Below are positions 10,236 through 58,536 of a stretch of 64,000 bases of DNA, piece by piece. The stretch is from Mycobacterium sherrisii (GTDB lineage Bacteria; Actinomycetota; Actinomycetes; Mycobacteriales; Mycobacteriaceae). How positions within the stretch are numbered: position 1 is the first letter of the stretch; every line of letters begins with the position of its first letter. The DNA lies in NCBI RefSeq assembly GCF_002102355.1, contig NZ_LQPT01000082.1, positions 62,001 through 126,000 of the forward strand, written 5' to 3'. Under the pieces are notes generated by a model. The model had not been told where the DNA came from, did not search any database, and saw only the letters and a list, made by a program, of their open reading frames with translations. A program made the position numbers and the translations under genes.

Positions 10236-11434
10236 ACTCGATGACCCCGTCGCAGTGGCTGGACGTCGCCGTGCTGGCCGTCGCCTTCATCGCCGCGATC
10301 TCGGGCTGGCGGTCGGGGGCGGTGGGATCGCTGTTCTCGTTCGTCGGCGTGCTGCTGGGTGCCATCGCCGGGGTGCTGCTGGCGCCGCACATCGTCAGCC
10401 ACATCGCCGCACCGCGCGCCAAGCTGTTCGCCGCGCTGTTCCTGATTCTCGCGCTGGTCGTCGTCGGTGAGGTTGCCGGCGTCGTGCTGGGGCGGGCCGT
10501 GCGCGGCGCGATTCACAGCCGCAGCATCCGAACGGCCGACTCCGTCATCGGGGTGGGCGTGCAACTGGTCGTGGTCCTCACCGCGGCCTGGCTGCTGGCA
10601 ACTCCGCTGACACAGTCGAAAGACCAACCCGAACTGGCCGCCGCCGTCCGCGGTTCGCGCGTGCTCGCGGAGGTCAACGACGTCGCGCCGCCGTGGCTGA
10701 AGACGGTGCCCAAACGTCTTTCGGCGCTGCTGAATACCTCCGGGTTGCCCGCAGTGCTGGAGCCGTTCAGCCGCACCCCGGTGATCCCCGTCGAGTCACC
10801 GGATCCCGCCCTGGCCAACAACCCGGTTGTAAAGGCCGCCGCGCCCAGCGTCGTCAAGGTACGCAGCTTGGCGCCGAGTTGCCAGAAAGTGTTGGAGGGC
10901 AGTGGTTTTGTCGTCGCCCCGGACCGGGTGATGACCAACGCGCACGTGGTGGCCGGTTCCAGCAGCGTCCAGATCTACGCCAGCGGCAATCCGCTGGACG
11001 CGACCGTGGTGTCCTATGACCCGTCGGTCGACATCGCCATCCTGTCCATCCCGAACCTGCCGCCGCCCCCGCTGGCGTTCAGCGACACCGAGGCGAAAAC
11101 CGGCACCAGCGTGGTGGTGCTGGGATATCCCGGCGGCGGCAACTTCACCGCGACCCCGGCCAGGATCCGGGAGGCCATCAAGCTCAGCGGTCCCGACATC
11201 TACCGGGACCCCGCGCCCGTCACCCGCGACGTCTACACCATCAGAGCCAATGTGGAACAAGGCAATTCGGGGGGACCGTTGATCGACCTCAGCGGCCACG
11301 TGCTCGGTGTGGTGTTCGGCGCCGCCGTCGACGACCCCGACACCGGATTTGTACTGACGGCCGGCGAGGTCGAGAGCCAGATGGCCCGGATCGGCGACAC
11401 CCAGCAGGTCGGCACCGGCAACTGCGTCAGCTGA
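10232..11434 (+). CDS. marP: Membrane serine protease MarP (acid resistance)
   Basis: 400 residues: four predicted membrane helices in the first ~130 residues, then a periplasmic chymotrypsin-like domain. The catalytic triad is H238 (TNAHVV), D267 (SVDIAIL) and S346 (GNSGGPL), each three residues beyond the M. tuberculosis Rv3671c positions (H235, D264, S343). In M. tuberculosis it is activated by autocleavage at low pH and is needed to keep intrabacterial pH; one reported substrate is the hydrolase RipA. The cysteines in the protease domain can form the known regulatory disulfide. The 3' end overlaps the convergent ephE stop by 8 bases. Confidence 0.96.
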   Translation: MNSMTPSQWLDVAVLAVAFIAAISGWRSGAVGSLFSFVGVLLGAIAGVLLAPHIVSHIAAPRAKLFAALFLILALVVVGEVAGVVLGRAVRGAIHSRSIRTADSVIGVGVQLVVVLTAAWLLATPLTQSKDQPELAAAVRGSRVLAEVNDVAPPWLKTVPKRLSALLNTSGLPAVLEPFSRTPVIPVESPDPALANNPVVKAAAPSVVKVRSLAPSCQKVLEGSGFVVAPDRVMTNAHVVAGSSSVQIYASGNPLDATVVSYDPSVDIAILSIPNLPPPPLAFSDTEAKTGTSVVVLGYPGGGNFTATPARIREAIKLSGPDIYRDPAPVTRDVYTIRANVEQGNSGGPLIDLSGHVLGVVFGAAVDDPDTGFVLTAGEVESQMARIGDTQQVGTGNCVS

Positions 11435-12392
11435 TCATCGGTCCGTGCAGCTGCTCGAGGAACCTCGTCAGATGCTTGTTGACCTCCTCGGGCACCTCTT
11501 CATGGCTGTAATGTCCCGCGTCGGCGATCGACAGGTAGCGGCCCTGCGTCGCGAAGCGTTGGCTGCGGTTGATCGAATCGGCCAGCACATAGGGATCGCC
11601 GTCGCCGCGCAGGTGTAGCAGCGGCACCCCCAGCTGCCGGGACACCGATTTCATGAATCGCCGTCCCTCGCCGCGCAGCTGGCTGCGCACGGCCCAGCGC
11701 TGGTACTCCAGCGCACAGTGCGCCGCACCGGGAATCTGGATGGCCGTGCGCAGGTAACCGATGGTCTGTGAAAAGTCTTCGGAGGCAACCCATTTCCCGG
11801 AGCTGCGGCTGCTGACCAGTCGCTCGATCTCGGCTCCGTCGTGGCGGGTCAGCAGTCGCTCGGGCCACGCCGGCAACTGGTAGCGCAACAGGGTCGACAG
11901 CAGCGCGGACCCCTGATCGCGGCGCGTCAACGCCGAGCGCCGCAATGCGACGGGATGCGGCGAGCTGATCAGTGCGATCCCGCGCACCAGCCGTGAGTGC
12001 AGCAGCGCGGTGGTCCAGCAGGCCAGGCCGCCGTCGGCGTGACCGACCAGCGTCGCCGACGAATGTCCAAGCGCGCGAATGAGTCCGGCCGTATCACCGG
12101 CCAACGTCCAACCGTCGTAACCGCGCGGCGGCTTGTCGCTGCCACCGTAGCCGCGAAGGTCGACCGCGACGACGCGCGTGCCGGTCAGTCCGCGCAACTG
12201 GTGTCGCCAGGACCACCAGAACGAACCGAAACCGTGCAGCAGCATCACCAGCGGGCGCGCCGCCGCCGCGCCCGGCGCCTCGTGGCCGTCCGGGAGTGCC
12301 TCGACGACGTGGAAGCGAATGCCGTTGGCGTGCACGTCCAGATGCCGCCACGGGCCGTCGATACGCACCACCGACGGATCTGGTGCCGCCAT
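11427..12392 (-). CDS. ephE: Alpha/beta-fold epoxide hydrolase EphE
   Basis: 321 residues with the oxyanion-hole motif HGFG (53-56), the nucleophile elbow GHADGG with D120 in place of serine (as required for epoxide or haloalkane hydrolases), and a C-terminal DAGHYSHEE with the catalytic histidine. Substrate is unknown; the family opens epoxides to diols. The ATG directly abuts the TAG of the upstream membrane-protein gene (no spacer), so the two form one transcription unit, as Rv3669-Rv3670 do. Confidence 0.93.
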   Translation of the reverse strand: MAAPDPSVVRIDGPWRHLDVHANGIRFHVVEALPDGHEAPGAAAARPLVMLLHGFGSFWWSWRHQLRGLTGTRVVAVDLRGYGGSDKPPRGYDGWTLAGDTAGLIRALGHSSATLVGHADGGLACWTTALLHSRLVRGIALISSPHPVALRRSALTRRDQGSALLSTLLRYQLPAWPERLLTRHDGAEIERLVSSRSSGKWVASEDFSQTIGYLRTAIQIPGAAHCALEYQRWAVRSQLRGEGRRFMKSVSRQLGVPLLHLRGDGDPYVLADSINRSQRFATQGRYLSIADAGHYSHEEVPEEVNKHLTRFLEQLHGPMIS

Positions 12393-12935
12393 CTACCAGC
12401 CCGAGGGGTCCGACGGGGTGCCGTTGCCGGGCTGCGCGTGCTTCCCGGCGGCCTCGGTGAGCTCCTTGCTCCCCGGAGCGGCCTTCTCGTGGCCCGGGGT
12501 CAGCGCGGTGCGGGTCTCCTTGACCGACTCGATCGTTTCCTGCGGTCCCCGGATCCGCCGCACCTTCAGCCACCCCAGCAGCGCCAGCACCGCGCCGACC
12601 ACCACCATGAGCGCGAACACGATCAGGAAGGCCACCCAGCGCCACAACCAGTTGTCGAGCAACTCGGCGAGGAAGAAGAAGAAAAAGAAGGTGGAGTAGA
12701 AGAGCACCACCAGCGCCGCGATGAAGAAGACGCTGCCGGTGAGGCCCTTTTTGATGTCGCGGGTGATCTCGGCGCGGGCCAGCTCGACCTCGGCCCGCAC
12801 CAACGTAGACGCCTGCGCCGTCGCCTCTTTGATCAGCTCACCGATGGACGGCTCGCCGTTGCGGGCGTGCGGATCCGCCAACGGAATCGTGGTCAGGGTG
12901 CTCGGCACACCATTTTTGCGATCGACTTTGCTCAC
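12393..12935 (-). CDS. Phage-holin-superfamily-6 membrane protein (Rv3669 type)
   Basis: 180 residues from GTG 12935, supported by a GAGAGGA ribosome binding site; longer in-frame extension has no such support. An amphipathic helix (EATAQASTLVRAEVELARAEI) precedes two membrane helices, the first containing a run of six phenylalanines, and a basic-to-charged cytoplasmic tail. This is the layout of the Actinobacterial Phage_holin_3_6 (DUF1469) family, which is not a prophage gene; function is unknown. The phenylalanine run is encoded by a purine-rich tract on the + strand at about 12670-12694. Confidence 0.88.
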   Translation of the reverse strand: MSKVDRKNGVPSTLTTIPLADPHARNGEPSIGELIKEATAQASTLVRAEVELARAEITRDIKKGLTGSVFFIAALVVLFYSTFFFFFFLAELLDNWLWRWVAFLIVFALMVVVGAVLALLGWLKVRRIRGPQETIESVKETRTALTPGHEKAAPGSKELTEAAGKHAQPGNGTPSDPSGW

Positions 12936-50804: not shown

Positions 50805-51404
50805 GTGGCCCAGATCTCCTCGGCGGTAACGCCTGAGCAGCCCGTGGACCTGTATCCGGGGGATATCAAGTCCGTGCTGCTCACCACGGAGCAGATCCAG
50901 GCGCGCATCGGCGAACTCGGCGAGCAGATCGGCAACGACTACGCCGCGGCGCAGAGCGACCAGGATCTGCTGTTGATTACCGTGCTCAAGGGCGCGGTCA
51001 TCTTTGTCACCGACCTGGCTCGCGCGATCCCGCTGCCGACGCAGTTCGAGTTCATGGCCGTCAGTTCCTACGGCTCCTCGACGTCGTCGTCGGGTGTGGT
51101 GCGCATTCTCAAAGACCTGGACCGCGACATCAACGATCGCGATGTGCTGATCGTCGAGGACATCGTGGACTCCGGCCTGACGTTGTCCTGGCTGCTGCGA
51201 AACCTCAAGACTCGACGTCCCCGCTCGCTGCGGGTGTGCACGCTGCTGCGCAAGCCCGACGCGCTGCGCGCCAACACCGACATCGCCTATGTCGGCTTCG
51301 ACATCCCTAACGAGTTCGTGGTCGGTTATGGCTTGGACTACGACGAGCGCTACCGCGACCTGTCCTACATCGGCACGCTGGACCCGCGGATCTACGAGCA
51401 ATAG
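50805..51404 (+). CDS. hpt: Hypoxanthine-guanine phosphoribosyltransferase
   Basis: 199 residues from GTG 50805. The PRPP-binding loop [13 protein letters not shown] is at 114-126, LKGAVIF at 61-67 and a [13 protein letters not shown] closing motif. It salvages hypoxanthine and guanine to IMP and GMP. The stop is 8 bases from the convergent XRE-cupin gene. In M. tuberculosis lpqG follows directly; here about 6.4 kb of extra genes intervene. Confidence 0.95.
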
Positions 51405-51412
51405 AGCCGAGT

Positions 51413-52159
51413 TCACGCGTCGGGGTAGGCGGTGATCGCCAAGAACCGGATCGGCAGGCGCACCAATTGATGCGGGCCATGCAGCGTCTCGCCGTCGAGC
51501 AACAACGTGTCGCCCGGGCGCAGCGTGTATTCGGCGTCGCCGTGGCCGTAGACCATCACGCCTTCGAGCATGTAGAGGACCTCGGTGCCGGGATGTTGAA
51601 ACTGCGGAAAGACTTCGCTGGCTTCGGTCAGGGTCACCAGCACCGGTTCGAGCCGCTTGTGCGGGCCCCGCAGTGCTCCTAGCAGTTCGTAGTGGTGTCC
51701 CACCCGGGTGCCGCGGCCGATGATCGTCGAGCCGCGCCCGTTCTCGGTGTAGACCGCGTCGTGTCCGGTGTCGGCGCCGCGGAACAGCACGGTCACCGGG
51801 ACGTCCAGGCCCGCCGCCAGCCTGGCCAGCGTGGAAAGACTGCACGACGTTTGCGCGTTCTCGATCTTGGACAGCATGGCCTTGGAGATTCCGACCCGGC
51901 CGGCCATGTCGGCGATCGACAGCCCGGCCGCCCGCCGCAGGCCGCGGACCTGGCGGGCGATGGCCTTCTCCAGGTCGTTTCCGGTCAGCGCCTCAGCTAC
52001 CACTTCGCGCTGGACCGGCGCCGGATCGCCGCTGTCGCGGACGACCGTGGGTTCGCGCTCCTCCACGGCGCGCGAGTCTAACAGAAACGTTTCCTGTGAG
52101 GAAACACTTGTGGAGGAGTCTCGCCGGATTGTGGGGCCTGGCGGGATCATAGCGTTCAC
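51413..52159 (-). CDS. XRE-family transcription regulator with cupin domain
   Basis: 248 residues for the longest frame (GTG 52159). The helix-turn-helix is at about 66-120 (RQVRGLRRAAGLSIADMAGRVG, ISKAMLSKIENAQTSCSLST), and a single cupin at about 165-240 (HPGTEVLYMLEGVM, LRPGDTLLLDGETLHGPHQL) that should bind a small effector. This is the PuuR/SutR-like class controlling amine and amino-acid catabolism. The first ~50 residues are not conserved-looking and cover a perfect palindrome, so the real start may be GTG 52066 or 52003. Divergent from the glutamine-synthetase-like operon, its likely target. Confidence 0.9.
   Translation of the reverse strand: MNAMIPPGPTIRRDSSTSVSSQETFLLDSRAVEEREPTVVRDSGDPAPVQREVVAEALTGNDLEKAIARQVRGLRRAAGLSIADMAGRVGISKAMLSKIENAQTSCSLSTLARLAAGLDVPVTVLFRGADTGHDAVYTENGRGSTIIGRGTRVGHHYELLGALRGPHKRLEPVLVTLTEASEVFPQFQHPGTEVLYMLEGVMVYGHGDAEYTLRPGDTLLLDGETLHGPHQLVRLPIRFLAITAYPDA
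52089..52105. promoter_or_regulatory. Perfect 7-3-7 palindrome, candidate operator
   Basis: GTTTCCT GTG AGGAAAC is a perfect inverted repeat. It overlaps a second palindrome GAAACGTTTC (52084-52093). A single further half-site GTTTCCT lies at 52222-52228 before the glutamine-synthetase-like gene. It sits inside the longest reading of the regulator gene, 54-70 bases from its first codon. Confidence 0.6.
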
Positions 52160-52174
52160 TATGACGAATCTTCA

Positions 52175-52189
52175 TTTCACCTAATGAAA
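52175..52189. promoter_or_regulatory. TTTCA-N5-TGAAA inverted repeat in the divergent promoter region
   Basis: TTTCA CCTAA TGAAA lies in the 115-base gap between the regulator and the ligase gene, about 85 bases before the ligase start. It differs from the GTTTCCT element, so it may bind another factor. Confidence 0.45.
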
Positions 52190-52274
52190 CACCCAATTGA
52201 TGTGTTGGCAACATTCGACCGGTTTCCTCGTAGAACGAGATAGTCGCGATAAGTCACGCTGAGGGAGAACCGGG

Positions 52275-53615
52275 ATGCCCGCCACCGTTGACCTGGTCAC
52301 GCTCTGTCAGGAGACCGACACCACATTCGTGCTGGCATTGTTCGTCGACCTCAACGGCAAGCCGTGCGCCAAGCTGGTACCCGTCGCCGCCGTCGACGCA
52401 CTCAGCACCGACGGCGTGGGGTTCGCCGGATACGCCGTAGGAGCGATCGGCCAAACGCCGAAAGATCCCGACCTGATCGCCATTCCCGACCCGGCGTCGT
52501 TCACGCCGATCCCGTTCGTCAAACCGGGCCTCGCGCTCGTGCACTGCGACCCCTACGTGCTGGGCAGGCCCTGGCCGTTTGCGCCGCGCAACATTCTCAA
52601 GGCGGTGCTGCGCCAGGTCAGCGACGCCGGGTTCGACGCCTGGGTGGGGGCCGAGGTCGAGTACTTCTTGCTCAAGAAGAACCCCGACGGCAGCCTGACC
52701 ACCGCCGACGGCGCCGACACCGCCCCACGGCCCTGTTACGACGCGCGCGCCGTCACCCGCATGTATGACCACTTGACCTCGATCAGCGACGCGATGAACG
52801 CGCTGGGCTGGGGCAACTACGCCAACGACCACGAGGACGGCAACGGGCAATTCGAGCAGAACTTCAAGTTCGCCGAGGCCCTGACCACCGCCGACCGGGT
52901 GGTCACCCTGCGCTATCTGGTGTCGGTGCTGGCCGCCGAGCGCGGCATGATCGCCACGTTCATGCCCAAACCATTCGCCGACCGCACCGGCAGCGGCCTG
53001 CATCTGCACCTGTCGTTGACCAGTGCCGGCGCGGCGGTGTTTCCCGGTGTCGAGGACGAGCGCGGGCTCGGGCTTTCGGAGACCGCGTACGGCTTCGTGG
53101 GCGGCATCCTCGATCATGCTGCCGCGCTGCAGGCCCTGATCGCACCAACCGTCAACTCCTACAAGCGAACTAGAGCGCTGTCCACCGCCTCGGGAGCGTC
53201 CTGGGCGCCGCGCACGCCCACCTACGGCGGAAACGACCGGACCCACTATGTCCGGGTGCCCGACAACCAGCGCATCGAGCTGCGCGGCGGCGACGGCTCG
53301 GCCAACCCCTACCTGGCCGTAGCGGCGGCCCTGGGTGCCGGCCTGGACGGCATCAAACGCAGCACCGACCCCGGTGCCATCGGCACGCTCGCCGCCACCC
53401 GGCCGGCGCTCCCGCTGACCTTGTTGCACGCCGTGGAGCAGCTGGAATCCGATGCGGTGCTCGCCGGTGTCCTCGATGCGGCACTGCCACCGGGCGAGCG
53501 GGGCGAAAACCCAACAGTGTCAGACTATTACGCGGCGCTCAAGCGCGAGGAGTTCTTCGCCTGGCACTCCGCGATCAGCCCCTGGGAAATCGATACCTAC
53601 CTGGCCGCCTTCTAG
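52275..53615 (+). CDS. glnT: Type III glutamine synthetase-like ligase (GlnT / gamma-glutamylmethylamide synthetase-like)
   Basis: 446 residues with GAGGGAG before ATG 52275. Glutamine-synthetase fold: GAEVEYFLL (first metal glutamate), EDGNGQFEQNF, GSGLHLHLSL (metal histidine), NSYKR, and RIELRGGDGSANPYL. This belongs to the GlnT/GMAS branch, which joins glutamate with ammonia or with methylamine/ethylamine using ATP. Which amine is used cannot be read from these motifs; the neighbours, which resemble N-methylglutamate synthase, favour a substituted amine. First gene of the operon. Confidence 0.9.
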   Translation: MPATVDLVTLCQETDTTFVLALFVDLNGKPCAKLVPVAAVDALSTDGVGFAGYAVGAIGQTPKDPDLIAIPDPASFTPIPFVKPGLALVHCDPYVLGRPWPFAPRNILKAVLRQVSDAGFDAWVGAEVEYFLLKKNPDGSLTTADGADTAPRPCYDARAVTRMYDHLTSISDAMNALGWGNYANDHEDGNGQFEQNFKFAEALTTADRVVTLRYLVSVLAAERGMIATFMPKPFADRTGSGLHLHLSLTSAGAAVFPGVEDERGLGLSETAYGFVGGILDHAAALQALIAPTVNSYKRTRALSTASGASWAPRTPTYGGNDRTHYVRVPDNQRIELRGGDGSANPYLAVAAALGAGLDGIKRSTDPGAIGTLAATRPALPLTLLHAVEQLESDAVLAGVLDAALPPGERGENPTVSDYYAALKREEFFAWHSAISPWEIDTYLAAF

Positions 53616-53663
53616 CGGCCGCCGTCACCAGACGAGGACTCACCAGACGAAGGACTCACCATA

Positions 53664-54560
53664 ATGTGCGGCATCATCGGGTTGCACCTGCGCAACCCCG
53701 ATCTGTATGCACGGCTGGGCGCGCTGCTCGCCGTGATGCTCGGCGAGATGGAAGACCGTGGTGCCGATTCGGCCGGCGTCGCGGTCTACGGCGACCCGGC
53801 GTGGTCACCGAGCGGGCAGGGTTGCGTCAGCCTCATCGGCGTCACCAGGGACGCCTCAAGTGCTGCGGCCGAAGTCGGCGCCGAACTTGGCCGGCCCGTC
53901 GACGCGGTCTTTGTCGCCGACACCCTGTTACTGCGCGGGGCGGCGCCGCCGTCGGCGGTGCTCGAGGCGGCCCGTGCCGTGTTCGCGGACGCGGTGATCG
54001 CCGGCTTCGGCCAGGATTTCGCGGTGCTCAAAGGAGTTGGGCGGCCGCGGGATCTGGTGCAGCGCTGGGGCTTGACCGCCGCGCAGGGCTGGCAGGGTGT
54101 CGGCCACACCCGGATGGCCACCGAGTCGGCGGTGAACCCGTCGGGTTGTCACCCGTACGCGGTGGGGCCAAATCAATGCCTGGTGCACAACGGGTCGTTC
54201 GCCAACCACGCCAGCATCCGCCGGGACTTGCAAAGGGGCGGAGTGCACTTCGATTCCGAAAACGACAGCGAGGTGGGCGCGCGCTTCGTTGCCCAACAGC
54301 TCGCCGACGGGCGGGACATCGAGACCGCGCTCAAGGCGCTGTGCGCCAGCTTCGACGGCTTCTACACGCTGCTGGTGTCCGACCGCAATTCGTTCGCGGT
54401 CGTCCGGGACGCCATCGCGTGCAAGCCCGCGGTGATCGCCGAAACCGACGATTGGGTCGCGATGGCCAGTGAATACCGTGCGCTTGCCCAATTGCCCGGC
54501 GTCGAGCGCGCCCGTGTCTGGGAACCTCAGCCCGAGGTGGTCTACGCATGGACCAGGTGA
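53664..54560 (+). CDS. glxB: GlxB/MgsA-like class II glutamine amidotransferase
   Basis: 298 residues beginning MCGIIGLH: the N-terminal nucleophile is C2 after methionine removal. Glutaminase motifs RGADSAG, GHTRMATESAVNPSGCHPY, VHNGSFANH and SENDSEV are intact. It corresponds to the amidotransferase domain of glutamate synthase as a separate subunit, hydrolysing glutamine or gamma-glutamylamide. AAGGA precedes ATG 53664; the 3' end overlaps the next gene by 13 bases. Confidence 0.92.
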   Translation: MCGIIGLHLRNPDLYARLGALLAVMLGEMEDRGADSAGVAVYGDPAWSPSGQGCVSLIGVTRDASSAAAEVGAELGRPVDAVFVADTLLLRGAAPPSAVLEAARAVFADAVIAGFGQDFAVLKGVGRPRDLVQRWGLTAAQGWQGVGHTRMATESAVNPSGCHPYAVGPNQCLVHNGSFANHASIRRDLQRGGVHFDSENDSEVGARFVAQQLADGRDIETALKALCASFDGFYTLLVSDRNSFAVVRDAIACKPAVIAETDDWVAMASEYRALAQLPGVERARVWEPQPEVVYAWTR

Positions 54561-55237
54561 GTACCGAGTTCGATCTGGGCCGGACGCCGCTGCGCGAGGT
54601 GAACGCCGCGCTGCATGCACCAGAGGTGTTCGGCCACTTCGTGATCCGAAATCCCGCGGGCGCGCACAACATCGCCGTCGGCCTCAACGCGCCGGTGCAG
54701 GTGACCATCGACGGACATGTCGGTTATTACGCCGCGGGGATGAACCAGCAGGCCGAGGTGGTCATCGCCGGCAACGCGGGCACCGGTGTCGCCGAGAACA
54801 TGATGAGCGGCACGGTCTGGGTCAACGGTGACGCCTCCCAGTCGGCGGGTGCCACCGCCCACGGCGGGTTGCTGGTCATCGAGGGCAATGCCGCTGCGCG
54901 GTGCGGTATTTCGATGAAGGGCGCCGACATCGTGGTGGGCGGGGACGTCGGTCACATGAGCGCGTTCATGGCCCAAGCCGGCAGGTTGGTGGTGCGCGGC
55001 GACGCCGGGGAGGCGCTCGGTGACTCGATCTACGAGGCTCGGATTTATGTGCGCGGCAACGTCGCCTCGTTGGGTGCCGACTGTGTGCCCAAGCAGATGA
55101 CCGACGAGCACCACGCCGAGCTGGCCGCCCTACTCAAGGCCGCGGGATTCCAGGACGACCAAACCAGCGAGTACACCCGCTACGGTTCGGCACGCTCCCT
55201 GTACCACTTCCATGTCGACAATGCGGGTGCCTACTGA
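54548..55237 (+). CDS. glxC: GlxC/MgsB-like glutamate synthase beta-helix subunit
   Basis: 229 residues made of repeated short glycine-rich turns (GHVGYYAAGMNQQAEVVIAG, GDASQSAGATAHGG, GDVGHMSAFMAQAG), the right-handed beta-helix of the GltB C-terminal (GXGXG) domain. As a separate subunit it occurs in GlxC and in subunit B of N-methylglutamate synthase. It is non-catalytic and holds the other two subunits. It overlaps both neighbours (13 bases and 1 base). Confidence 0.92.
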   Translation: MDQVSTEFDLGRTPLREVNAALHAPEVFGHFVIRNPAGAHNIAVGLNAPVQVTIDGHVGYYAAGMNQQAEVVIAGNAGTGVAENMMSGTVWVNGDASQSAGATAHGGLLVIEGNAAARCGISMKGADIVVGGDVGHMSAFMAQAGRLVVRGDAGEALGDSIYEARIYVRGNVASLGADCVPKQMTDEHHAELAALLKAAGFQDDQTSEYTRYGSARSLYHFHVDNAGAY

Positions 55238-56598
55238 TGACTTCGATCCGGCCGGGCTACGAAACCAGCAGCGATTCGCGCGCGCAACGGGGACTGCGGG
55301 AATCCGCGACCTTCGACCGCACCACCATCGCGGCGATACAGCGAGCGGCGGAGACGGGGATTTACGACATTCGCGGTTGGGGCGCCAAGCGGGCGCTTCC
55401 ACACTTCGACGATCTGCTGTTTTTAGGGGCGTCGATGTCACGCTATCCGCTGGAGGGCTACCGCGAGCGGTGCGGAACCGACGTGGTGCTGGGCGACCGC
55501 CATGCCAAACAGGCGCTGCACCTGGCCATTCCGATCACCATCGCCGGAATGAGCTTCGGCGCCCTGTCCGCACAGGCGAAAGAAGCACTCGGCCGGGGCG
55601 CCAGCGAGGTCGGTACCTCGACCACCACCGGCGACGGCGGTATGACGCCGGAGGAGCGCGGCCACAGCAAACAGCTGGTCTATCAATACCTGCCGTCGCG
55701 GTACGGGATGAACCCCGACGACATGCGCAGGGCCGACGCCATCGAGGTGGTGCTGGGGCAAGGCGCCAAACCCGGTGGCGGCGGAATGCTGTTGGGACAG
55801 AAGATCTCTGACCGCGTCGCGGCGATGCGCACGCTGCCGGTCGGCATCGACCAACGCAGCGCCTGCCGGCATCCGGACTGGACCGGTCCCGACGACCTCA
55901 CCATCAAGATCAACGAGCTGCGCGAGATCACCGACTGGGAAAAGCCCATCTACGTCAAACTCGGCGCGACCCGCACCTATTACGACGTCAAACTGGCCGT
56001 CCACGCCGGCGCCGACGTGGTGGTGGTCGACGGCATGCAGGGCGGCACCGCCGCCACCCAGGAGGTGTTCATCGAGCATGTGGGGATCCCCACGCTGGCC
56101 GCCATCCCGCAGGCCGTGCAGGCCCTGCAGGAACTCGGGGTGCACCGGAAGGTCCAGCTCGTGGTCTCCGGCGGCATTCGCAGCGGCGCCGACGTGGCCA
56201 AGGCGCTCGCGTTGGGCGCCGATGCCGTCGCCATCGGCACGGCCGCGCTGATTGCGCTGGGCGACAACCATCCCCGCTACGCCGCCGAGTACGAGGAGCT
56301 CGGCAGCGCGGCGGGTTTCTACGACGACTTCCAAGACGGCCGCGATCCGGCGGGCATCAGCACCCAGGACCCCGAGCTGGCGGCCCGGTTCGATCCGGTT
56401 GCGGGGGGCCGGCGGTTGGCCAACTACCTGCGGGTGCTGACCATGGAGGCCCAGACCATCGCCCGGGCCTGCGGGAAGGCGCACGTGTGTCATCTCGAGC
56501 CCGAGGATCTGGTGGCTGTCACCATCGAGGCGGCCGCCATGGCCCGAGTGCCGCTGGCCGGCACCGGGTGGATCCCCGGGATCGCGGGTGGGCGATGA
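55237..56598 (+). CDS. glxD: GlxD/MgsC-like FMN-binding glutamate synthase subunit
   Basis: 453 residues with the TIM-barrel FMN domain: STTTGDGGM, GQGAKPGGGGMLLG, KLGATRTYYDVKLAVHAGADVVVVDGMQGGTAA and VSGGIRSGADVAKALALGADAVAIGTAAL. The residue after IAL-G, normally the first cysteine of the [3Fe-4S] site, is D (IALGDNHP), and only two close cysteines (ACGKAHVC) follow, so the classical cluster cannot form in the usual way. This seems typical of the Glx/Mgs branch as I recall it. Start overlaps the previous stop. Confidence 0.92.
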   Translation: MTSIRPGYETSSDSRAQRGLRESATFDRTTIAAIQRAAETGIYDIRGWGAKRALPHFDDLLFLGASMSRYPLEGYRERCGTDVVLGDRHAKQALHLAIPITIAGMSFGALSAQAKEALGRGASEVGTSTTTGDGGMTPEERGHSKQLVYQYLPSRYGMNPDDMRRADAIEVVLGQGAKPGGGGMLLGQKISDRVAAMRTLPVGIDQRSACRHPDWTGPDDLTIKINELREITDWEKPIYVKLGATRTYYDVKLAVHAGADVVVVDGMQGGTAATQEVFIEHVGIPTLAAIPQAVQALQELGVHRKVQLVVSGGIRSGADVAKALALGADAVAIGTAALIALGDNHPRYAAEYEELGSAAGFYDDFQDGRDPAGISTQDPELAARFDPVAGGRRLANYLRVLTMEAQTIARACGKAHVCHLEPEDLVAVTIEAAAMARVPLAGTGWIPGIAGGR

Positions 56599-57785
56599 GC
56601 GCTGAAACCGCCGATGTCCTCATTGTGGGCGGCGGTCTCGAGGGCGCCGCGGCGGCCTGGGCGCTGAGCCAGCGAGGCGTCACCGATGTCGTTGTCGCCG
56701 AACGCGATACCGTCGGCTCGGGCATGACCGGGAAGTCCAGCGGTATCGTGCGCTGTCACTACGGGGTGAGCTCGCTGGCAGCCATGGCCGCGGTCGGTGT
56801 TGAGGTGTTCGAGAAGGCCGAGGAACTCTTCGGCTCCGACATCGGTTTCCGCCAGACCGGCTACGTGGTCGGGGTGAGCGACGCTAACGCGGACAACATG
56901 CGTAAAAGCCTTGCCGCCCAGCGCGAGATCGGGGTGCAGACCGAAGAGATCGGCAGGTCCGAGGTTGCTCGGCTGTGGCCGTACGCCGACCTGGAGCCGT
57001 TCGGCGCGTTCGGCTTCGAGGCGCGCGGCGGCTACGGCGATGCCTATCGGACCGCCCAGGCGATGATGCTGACCGCTCGTGCCACCGGGACACGGCTGCG
57101 GCAGGGCGCCCGGGTGCTGCGGCTGCTGGTAGCCGGCGACCGTATCTCGGGGGCGGTGTTGGCAGATGGCGCCGAGATCCATGCCGGCACCGTGGTCGTG
57201 GCCACCGGTGCGTGGACGCCGGCGTTGCTGGCTCCCCATGGCATCGCCGTCCCCATCACCGTGCACCGCGAGCAGATCGTGATGGTGTCGCCCGGCGTCG
57301 ATCTGGGACCGGTACCGGTGTTCTCCGATTTGGTGTCGCTGCAATACGTTCGGCCGGAGATCGGCGGAGACATCCTGTTCGGCAACTCCGATCTGGCCGC
57401 ACTAGACGTCGCCGACCCGGACCGATACCTCAACCGCGCCGATGCGGCTTTTCTGGAGCTGGCCGCCGAGAAAATCAGCACCCGGTTCCCCGGCCTGGGC
57501 GACGCCTCGATCAGCGGCAGCTACGCCGGGTGTTACGACGTCACCCCGGACTGGAACCCGGTGATCTCGCGCTGCGCTGTGGCGGGCTTGATCGTCGCCG
57601 CCGGGTTCAGTGGGCACGGTTTCAAGATTTCTCCGGCGGTCGGGCGGCTGGTCGCCGACCTCGTCGTCGACGGGCACTCCAGCGACCCACGCATTCCCGA
57701 ATCCGACTTCCGGTTATCGCGGTTTGCCGAAGGGGAGCTGCTCACCAGCCGATTCCCGTACCTGGGCGCGGGCGAGATGCGCTGA
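56595..57785 (+). CDS. FAD-dependent amine/amino-acid oxidoreductase (sarcosine oxidase beta/DAO family)
   Basis: 396 residues from ATG 56595, overlapping the glxD stop (ATGA). Rossmann FAD motif DVLIVGGGLEGAAAAWALSQ is followed by SSGIVRCHY, VVVATGAWTP, and C-terminal VAAGFSGHGFKISPAVGRLVADL, as in sarcosine oxidase beta and the MgdA subunit of N-methylglutamate dehydrogenase. H/C in RCHYG is where related enzymes bind FMN or FAD. Predicted role: oxidative removal of the N-alkyl group, or deamination of the product of the upstream enzymes. No partner subunits (SoxA/D/G-like) are nearby. Confidence 0.9.
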   Translation: MSAETADVLIVGGGLEGAAAAWALSQRGVTDVVVAERDTVGSGMTGKSSGIVRCHYGVSSLAAMAAVGVEVFEKAEELFGSDIGFRQTGYVVGVSDANADNMRKSLAAQREIGVQTEEIGRSEVARLWPYADLEPFGAFGFEARGGYGDAYRTAQAMMLTARATGTRLRQGARVLRLLVAGDRISGAVLADGAEIHAGTVVVATGAWTPALLAPHGIAVPITVHREQIVMVSPGVDLGPVPVFSDLVSLQYVRPEIGGDILFGNSDLAALDVADPDRYLNRADAAFLELAAEKISTRFPGLGDASISGSYAGCYDVTPDWNPVISRCAVAGLIVAAGFSGHGFKISPAVGRLVADLVVDGHSSDPRIPESDFRLSRFAEGELLTSRFPYLGAGEMR

Positions 57786-57801
57786 GCGCTGGCCGGTTCG
57801 G

Positions 57802-58536
57802 CTAGTCCAGTTGCCATGCGGCGGTCACCGAGAAGCTCACCGTCTGCTGGCCGGGCTCCAGCGGCACCGGGGTCGCCATGGCCTTCGGTGCCGGCGGGCC
57901 CCCGGGCGCGGGTGGGCCGATGGCCTCCGAAATGGACAAGACCGTGCCCAGCCGCAGGCCGGACAGCTGAGCGTACTGGTCGGCACGGTTCTTGGCGTCG
58001 TTGAATGCCCGCGCGCGGGCATCCTTGACCAGTTGCGAATCGTCGGCGATCGAGTAGCTGACCGAACTGATCCGGGTGGCATCGCCGCCGGTGTTGACGA
58101 TCAGTGCGAGCAGGCGCGATGCCGCGTCCGTCGGGTGGATCTTGACCCGAATGGAGTTGGTGGCACGGTAGCCGGTGATGACGGGTTCGGGACTGCCGTA
58201 CTGGGGTTGCAGGGTCACCTGGGTGGTGCTGATGTCCCTACGGTCGACGCCGGCACCGATGAGCGCGTTGATGACGGCCTGCTGGCGGTCATTGGTCTGA
58301 TTCATCGCCACGGTCACGTCCGGTGCGTCGAATTCGATGCCGACGTCGGCGGTCAACGTGTCCGGCACTCCTTGCACCTGTCCCGAACCGGTGACGGTCA
58401 CCTGGCGCGGATGCTCGCCCGGCGGCGCCGCCGCAGGGTGGGAATCGCACGCCGTTGCCGTGGTCACGGTCAAACCGGCCACGGCAACGGCAATCGAGCA
58501 GCGTAGGAGAAGTCCAGCGCGTTGTTCGATGGCCAT
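57802..58536 (-). CDS. lpqG: SIMPL-domain lipoprotein LpqG
   Basis: 244 residues from ATG 58536. Signal peptide ending VTTATAC with the lipid-modified cysteine at C30 (atypical alanine at -3). The mature protein is a SIMPL (DUF541) domain: VTVTGSGQVQGVPDTLTADVGIEF and RAFNDAKNRADQYAQLSGLRLG. Function is unknown in mycobacteria. In M. tuberculosis (Rv3623) it lies next to hpt. It follows the small membrane gene by 10 bases. Confidence 0.92.
   Translation of the reverse strand: MAIEQRAGLLLRCSIAVAVAGLTVTTATACDSHPAAAPPGEHPRQVTVTGSGQVQGVPDTLTADVGIEFDAPDVTVAMNQTNDRQQAVINALIGAGVDRRDISTTQVTLQPQYGSPEPVITGYRATNSIRVKIHPTDAASRLLALIVNTGGDATRISSVSYSIADDSQLVKDARARAFNDAKNRADQYAQLSGLRLGTVLSISEAIGPPAPGGPPAPKAMATPVPLEPGQQTVSFSVTAAWQLD

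Follow-up and report, generated by a model that had tools for sequence, protein, structure and literature searches.

How a mycobacterium could recover glutamate from an amine with the first two enzymes of the methylotroph N-methylglutamate pathway and a single flavoprotein is the question raised by a compact operon of Mycobacterium sherrisii. The operon lies in a 64-kb stretch of contig NZ_LQPT01000082.1, hereafter the window (the genome is 5.56 Mb in 128 contigs). It encodes a ligase of the gamma-glutamylmethylamide synthetase (GMAS) type, three subunits of a split glutamate synthase (GlxB, GlxC and GlxD) and one oxidoreductase dependent on flavin adenine dinucleotide (FAD). Gene content, gene order, clades, co-occurrence and conserved residues together make it probable that these proteins act in a route from amine through gamma-glutamylamide and N-alkylglutamate to glutamate, with the stand-alone FAD protein serving as the dehydrogenase. 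Profile searches recovered all these genes, and a divergent XRE-cupin regulator, at the positions given by the first-pass annotation, which had been made from the sequence alone. The operon genes are as follows.

52275..53615, plus strand: GMAS-type ligase (glnT; type III glutamate--ammonia ligase family), TIGR03105 over cut-off.
53664..54560, plus strand: GlxB/MgsA, class II glutamine amidotransferase subunit, matching GATase_6 and GATase_7, with an N-terminal MCGIIG.
54548..55237, plus strand: GlxC/MgsB, GXGXG (GltB3-like) subunit, matching PF01493.
55237..56598, plus strand: GlxD/MgsC, glutamate-synthase-type subunit binding flavin mononucleotide (FMN), assigned from PF01645 (302 bits), GltB as PDB kin, and the tree.
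56595..57785, plus strand: stand-alone FAD oxidoreductase (DAO fold; PF01266, 202 bits), proposed from co-occurrence, residues and tree to be an N-alkylglutamate dehydrogenase.

The genes had been described as five overlapping ones. This holds for three junctions, namely GlxB/GlxC (13 nt), GlxC/GlxD (1 nt) and GlxD/FAD (4 nt, the ATGA at 56595-56598), and fails for the ligase and GlxB genes, which are 48 bp apart. The FAD gene likely starts at ATG 56595, though its open reading frame opens at 56487. The order GS-GlxB-GlxC-GlxD-FAD, where GS is the glutamine synthetase-family ligase gene, is beyond chance because it is kept in 57 of 60 mycobacterial loci. At one locus (L254, genome G579) relatives of GS and GlxD were directly adjacent, and relatives of GlxB and GlxC were not found between or beside them.

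The ligase scored 583.8 bits against TIGR03105 (cut-off 469.6), and its best PDB chains were 7cql (RhGmaS) and 9qur (glutamate--methylamine ligase). Thirteen RhGmaS positions were mapped from residues named in the accessible part of PMC7948447, with H178 added in this analysis. Ten of the 13 are kept in the window ligase, which differs at Q175A, W189F and Y191F; W189 and Y191 are ATP-site positions in RhGmaS. The GMAS pocket residues Lys30, Tyr147, Asp177, Glu179, Glu186 and Asn188 are all present. Ala48 and Trp300, which replace the ammonia-binding Asp and the catalytic (flap) Glu of glutamine synthetases, are kept as well. The profile score and the Ala/Trp substitutions place the protein with GMAS, as had been proposed.

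The assignment of GlxBCD to the N-methylglutamate synthase type also stood, on domain matches and on the presence of amidotransferase, GXGXG and FMN subunit genes in a row with the ligase gene. The window GlxD is 77-83% identical to the copies of one proteobacterial clade and about 69-71% identical to those of the other. Membership of these two GlxD clades was tried as a pathway marker and rejected; both mix FAD-linked and Mgd-linked copies, and therefore the clade does not tell which oxidase accompanies it.

The oxidation step is performed by MgdABCD in the methylotroph pathway. A profile search of the complete assembly for SoxD (MgdB, PF04267), which succeeded in 27 of 248 congeneric genomes, gave no match, in agreement with the earlier statement that MgdBCD are missing. 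The flavoprotein had been called MgdA-like, and this identification was rejected. In a tree of 68 hand-picked rows, including 30 FAD proteins, 14 MgdA and 8 SoxB, the 30 FAD rows formed their own clade (98/99), apart from the clade of MgdA and SoxB (100/99); the program warned of long branches at the deep joins, which are thus uncertain. Nor did the protein fall among unrelated amino-acid oxidases, and it stood apart from the other DAO proteins of the genome.

Residues were compared in 80 FAD-clade, 14 MgdA, 23 SoxB and 6 MSOX-like rows, excluding the MSOX-like protein of locus L244 and an MSOX-like piece at a contig edge (L231). The histidine that we take to be the FMN attachment site of SoxB was found in 14/14 MgdA and 23/23 SoxB rows and in 0/80 rows of the FAD clade; the window protein has Ala. 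An Arg and a Lys, presumably the residues holding the substrate carboxylate, were each kept in 79 of 80 FAD-clade rows, and both are present in the window protein. The Cys and Lys of MSOX, assumed here to be its covalent-FAD and O2-activating residues, occur in 6/6 MSOX-like rows and are absent from the FAD clade (Gly and Ser in the window protein), although the alignment has gaps at the Lys. Taken together, these residues fit a stand-alone enzyme that dehydrogenates an N-substituted amino acid. The nearest NCBIfam models of the FAD protein were N-methyltryptophan oxidase, SoxB and MSOX, all far below their cut-offs; a PHROGs search gave no match, and no prior biochemistry on the protein was found in the open-access literature searched. 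The C-terminus of the FAD clade (57759-57785 in the window) is a nearly invariant PY-x-GAGEM-R tail, which was used as a scan pattern.

The distribution of the FAD protein follows that of the synthase. GlxD relatives were found in 100 of 248 congeneric genomes, and the FAD protein in 98 of these 100 and in none of the 148 without GlxD. Both GlxD genomes lacking it (G217 and G065) carry SoxD, with an MgdA-B-C set beside GlxD in G217. Sampling across the class covered 394 genomes, 44 with and 350 without GlxD, and all of the 44 could be assigned an oxidase type by the analyst: the FAD clade was adjacent to GlxD in 25 genomes and elsewhere in 7, an MSOX-like gene was present in 7, in each case in or near the Glx cluster, and adjacent MgdABCD genes in 5. 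Among the 80 matches listed for named genomes, homologues of at least 47% identity adjoin GlxD in 25 of 27 cases, and those below 40% in 3 of 53. The GlxD-adjoining homologues of the first group, among the matches listed, come from Mycolicibacterium, Gordonia, Nocardia, Dietzia, Nocardioides, Prauserella, Pseudonocardia, others, and one Alicyclobacillaceae metagenome-assembled genome. Along the starred branches of the GlxD tree, the FAD label must have changed at least three times and the Mgd label at least twice, so the oxidase module has been exchanged more than once. In the betaproteobacteria Verminephrobacter (L366) and Cupriavidus (L380), DAO proteins only 32% identical stand beside GS-GlxBCD and are perhaps a further recruited oxidase. 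Three options had been offered for the locus: oxidation by the flavoprotein alone, another amine, or glutamate from an unusual amide. The first is the best supported, by this co-occurrence, by the slot shared with MgdABCD and MSOX-like genes, and by a formaldehyde dehydrogenase gene that follows the FAD gene in 3/60 loci.

The proposed route would begin with the ATP-dependent joining of a small primary amine to glutamate by the ligase, giving a gamma-glutamyl-alkylamide. GlxBCD would then move the alkylamine from the amide to 2-oxoglutarate, using two electrons, to form N-alkylglutamate and glutamate. The FAD protein alone, without FMN and without the folate-binding subunits of MgdABCD, would oxidize N-alkylglutamate to glutamate and a free aldehyde, which would be formaldehyde if methylamine is the substrate. 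We also entertain, as a long shot, that the FAD protein represents a third kind of N-alkylglutamate dehydrogenase, recruited independently, that passes two electrons, directly or through a shared carrier, back to the reductase-less GlxBCD. If this were true, amine-to-glutamate transfer would be redox-neutral, at the cost of one ATP and without O2/H2O2 chemistry.

Methylamine is the likeliest of the candidate amines. In three of the 60 mycobacterial loci (L144, L149 and L141) the FAD gene is immediately followed by one for an S-(hydroxymethyl)mycothiol dehydrogenase, and because this is a mycothiol-dependent formaldehyde dehydrogenase, its position suggests that formaldehyde is made and hence that methylamine is the amine. 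The L144 and L149 proteins scored 656.8 and 692.9 bits against TIGR03451 (cut-off 512.9), and their genes are on the same strand as FAD; in L141 an 87% identical relative lies 65 bp after the FAD gene. A gene for an MBL-fold hydrolase comes next after the dehydrogenase in L144 and L149 and adjoins the FAD gene in L148. Just upstream of the L144 ligase, a permease (11205-12692) distantly resembles the trimethylamine N-oxide and ethanolamine permease models, below cut-off.

Several observations weigh against this route, or against methylamine as its substrate. SoxD is commoner in congeneric genomes with GlxD (25/100) than in those without (2/148), and 23 genomes encode SoxD alongside the FAD protein, which shows that neither excludes the other. 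The genomes are related, and therefore the Fisher values for co-occurrence overstate the association. The FAD protein was also found in 3 of the 350 class genomes without GlxD. Of 12 plasmid loci examined, 8 contain MgdA and one the FAD protein, and 3 (L212, L264 and L269; two from Acinetobacter, one from Paracoccus) have no complete oxidase in the stretch covered. The two Acinetobacter plasmids (L212 and L269) carry glnT-glxBCD with a divergent XRE gene and amt genes; upstream in L269 are ends of sarcosine-oxidase-type genes and an IS30 transposase. Further, 10 mM methylamine as the only source of nitrogen gave no growth of M. smegmatis, according to the available part of PMC4222082; this negative is not clean, because urea also failed despite the presence of urease. 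Finally, Q175, which lines the amine pocket and contacts the ATP phosphate in RhGmaS (PMC7948447, as far as accessible), is replaced by Ala in the window ligase, which may widen the pocket and would suit a larger amine.

The last two points would also fit the same chemistry acting on ethanolamine, ethylamine or another short amine, with the FAD enzyme yielding glycolaldehyde or acetaldehyde. We regard this as possible, at perhaps a one-in-several chance. The accessible passages report that ethanolamine supports GlnR-dependent growth of M. smegmatis (PMC4222082) and that RhGmaS also accepts ethylamine and propylamine (PMC7948447). Other enzymes could explain the ethanolamine growth, and no search for such enzymes was made. 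Of the actinobacterial rows without a gap at position 175, 94 of 94 have Ala, the window included, whereas 11 of 11 proteobacterial rows have Gln; the residue follows lineage and not the oxidase, because the MgdABCD-linked mycobacterial copy in L146 also has Ala. The adjoining formaldehyde dehydrogenase genes argue against these amines as well.

Two further explanations deny the FAD protein its role in an amine route. The operon could be a spare ammonia-assimilating pair, with glutamine as the product of the ligase, glutamate as that of GlxBCD, and an unrelated role for the FAD protein. In line with this explanation, an ammonium transporter gene stands in front of 46 of the 60 mycobacterial loci, NCBI names the ligase family glutamate--ammonia ligase, and nitrogen limitation induces the cluster via GlnR according to the accessible part of the published work. 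Against it, Ala48 and Trp300 stand in place of the Asp and Glu of glutamine synthetases, Amt proteins transport methylammonium too, the genome holds other glutamine synthetase-family genes and a full-length GltB-type gene, and the oxidase almost always accompanies GlxD; we disfavor this explanation as very unlikely. The FAD protein might otherwise be an oxidase of sarcosine or another N-methyl amino acid that merely shares the operon, for example in the breakdown of N-carbamoyl-N-methyl amino acids with an amidohydrolase. Eleven loci do combine an allantoate-amidohydrolase-like gene with one for the FAD protein or an MSOX-like protein, an association that the methylamine route leaves unexplained and that also counts against this route. 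In two genomes (G377 and G325) the FAD and amidohydrolase genes are paired away from the Glx genes, and the nearest NCBIfam models are for N-methyltryptophan and sarcosine oxidases, all below cut-off. The amidohydrolase gene is in neither the window nor most loci, the FAD protein is missing from all 148 congeneric genomes without GlxD, and M. smegmatis does not grow on creatinine, as the available part of PMC4222082 states; we therefore consider such an oxidase improbable. The amidohydrolase/carbamoylase-like genes were seen in L145 (8675-9901), L147, L151, L225, L229, L230, L231, L245, L257 and, for the separate pairs, L261 and L262; PRK09290.1-4 matched above cut-off in both genes tested, and the FAD proteins concerned belong to another branch of their clade than those linked to the formaldehyde dehydrogenase.

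The amine-to-glutamate operon, together with its regulator, occupies an unusual place in the chromosome. The remaining features are listed below.

51413..52159, minus strand, divergent from the operon: XRE-cupin regulator, matching HTH_31, HTH_3 and Cupin_2.
52089..52105, no strand: candidate XRE operator palindrome GTTTCC-n5-GGAAAC, one of two TTTC-n7-GAAA sites in 64 kb.
52175..52189, no strand: second palindrome, TTTCA-n5-TGAAA, in the divergent promoter, from the motif count.
51405..57801, no strand: whole insert, from the hpt stop to the lpqG-like stop, delimited by flank adjacency in relatives and by junction sequences.

The block spans 6.4 kb and is inserted between hpt, whose stop is at 51404, and a SIMPL gene (stop at 57802) that we take to be lpqG-like, its protein matching SIMPL/DUF541. 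Seventeen lpqG-like loci were compared, the window being one of them. In 8 of the 16 relatives' loci hpt lies within about 130 bp of the lpqG-like gene and the block is absent, which supports the insertion proposed earlier; in one it is ~0.9 kb away, and in the remaining 7 the sequence covered, roughly 1.5 kb, does not show it. In three example loci without the block, 3-4 bases separate the stop codons of the two genes. The GC content of the block (67.6%) is similar to that of its flanks (69.5% and 66.8%); any direct repeat in the junction sequences is at most 6 bases long, and the repeat search gave no long inverted repeat. Neither hpt, TilS nor the lpqG-like gene was found beside the operon in any of the 60 mycobacterial loci. 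Many of these sit between genes that, from their translated neighbors, we presume to be of the aspartokinase/asd and leuA types, and in 51 of 60 a same-strand XRE gene is located downstream. Because the 60 loci show this other arrangement, the location, the absence of amt and the divergent XRE gene of the window are unusual. In both the FAD and GlxD trees the closest relative of the window copy is its sister, a plasmid operon of Candidatus Mycobacterium methanotrophicum, and the window operon was likely relocated by horizontal transfer.

Regulation also appears to differ. Most mycobacterial copies of the operon begin with a GlnR-type box and a gene for an ammonium transporter; in the window the transporter gene and a strict box are absent, and a divergent XRE-cupin gene with two palindromes takes their place. 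The XRE-cupin protein is weakly PuuR-like, below cut-off, and a relative stands beside most clusters compared; its true start probably lies within the open reading frame, because relatives mostly align over only ~187 amino acids. A loose triple-AC pattern for GlnR was uninformative (9 matches in the window, 8.59 expected) and was replaced by the strict motif TNAC-n6-GNAAC, which agrees with the consensus Gn2AC-n6GnAACA and the looser AC/T-n9-AC printed in the available part of PMC3662644. Within 430 bp around the first gene, the strict motif was found in 44 of 59 usable mycobacterial loci and was missing from 15; its frequency was 4.7% in random pieces and 3.5% in shuffles (1180 each). It is absent from the 240 bp upstream of the window operon, where the looser form was not scanned and a weak GlnR site may therefore exist. 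Both TTTC-n7-GAAA palindromes of the window are in its divergent promoter region. The 1,589,524 bases of the compared loci contained 9 such sites, 6 of them in XRE/GS/GlxB promoter spans of proteobacterial clusters. The operator palindrome was found in none of the 59 mycobacterial upstream regions. With one mismatch allowed (9 of 10 arm positions), it occurred in 13 of 184 promoter stretches, namely 8 of 25 plasmid-borne, 3 of 58 other actinobacterial and 2 of 101 mycobacterial ones, counts in which AT-richer Acinetobacter makes chance matches likelier. We hold the first palindrome, on moderate support, to be a candidate XRE operator, and our reading is that the moved operon may have left GlnR control for that of the XRE-cupin regulator.

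The closest described counterpart is the methylotroph N-methylglutamate pathway (gmaS, mgsABC and mgdABCD). As presented in the accessible part of PMC6237917 for Methylobacterium extorquens DM4, it likewise has a GMAS-type ligase and a three-subunit synthase in one operon, and several proteobacterial clusters compared here also include XRE regulators and Amt genes. The window has one FAD protein without the FMN-binding histidine in place of MgdABCD, and no SoxD in the genome. To judge from sequence, the system would work like this pathway and matches it in its first two steps, and its third enzyme does not qualify as MgdABCD. Among proteins of the DAO fold, SoxB/MgdA, MSOX and the Pyrococcus proline dehydrogenase beta subunit (1y56_B) have the substrate Arg in common with the FAD protein. 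It differs from SoxB/MgdA in lacking the FMN-binding histidine, from MSOX in lacking the covalent Cys and (in a gappy column) the O2-activating Lys, and from 1y56_B in having the substrate Lys.

The amt1-glnT-glxBCD-oxidoreductase operon of M. smegmatis (MSMEG_6259-6264) has like products in the like order by annotation, not by sequence comparison. In the accessible passages of PMC4222082 and PMC3662644 all its genes are GlnR-dependent, and msmeg_6259-6264 were higher in wild type than in the glnR mutant (11.67, 16.11, 10.36, 7.40, 7.01 and 5.06; PMC4222082). This bears out the kinship with a GlnR-controlled cluster claimed in the first-pass annotation. The accompanying suggestion that the novelty may lie in the linked DAO protein is inexact, since the protein is not peculiar to the window: MSMEG_6264, a putative oxidoreductase, is GlnR-dependent together with MSMEG_6259-6263. 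From that cluster the window copy departs in its chromosomal location, in the divergent orientation of its XRE gene, and in the absence of both amt and, within 240 bp upstream, a strict GlnR box. For Mycobacterium sp. 141 and 155, the part of PMC5023230 available assigns a similar Gma and MgsABC to methylamine use and the oxidation to an MgdABCD set encoded at a separate genomic site, and a linked single flavoprotein is not mentioned in that part; the ligase and synthase are thus already known in two mycobacteria. The plasmid of Candidatus Mycobacterium methanotrophicum (NZ_CP097321, L211) encodes GS, GlxB, GlxC, GlxD and FAD proteins 88%, 83%, 86%, 93% and 77% identical to those of the window. 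That operon lies near integrase and transposase genes, and XRE-cupin was not found beside it. In the open-access literature searched, to which the search was confined, no paper on a single-protein N-methylglutamate dehydrogenase was found, nor any description of the coupled flavoprotein, its partner swapping or the lost GlnR box of the window.

The system is widespread. About two fifths of the sampled mycobacterial genomes (100/248) carry the module, which belongs to the published GlnR nitrogen regulon of M. smegmatis, where its oxidoreductase is unnamed. If the proposed route is true, annotation that calls the second half of the pathway missing for want of MgdBCD is wrong, biotechnology would gain a single-protein N-alkylglutamate dehydrogenase, and mycobacteria under nitrogen limitation would produce free formaldehyde.

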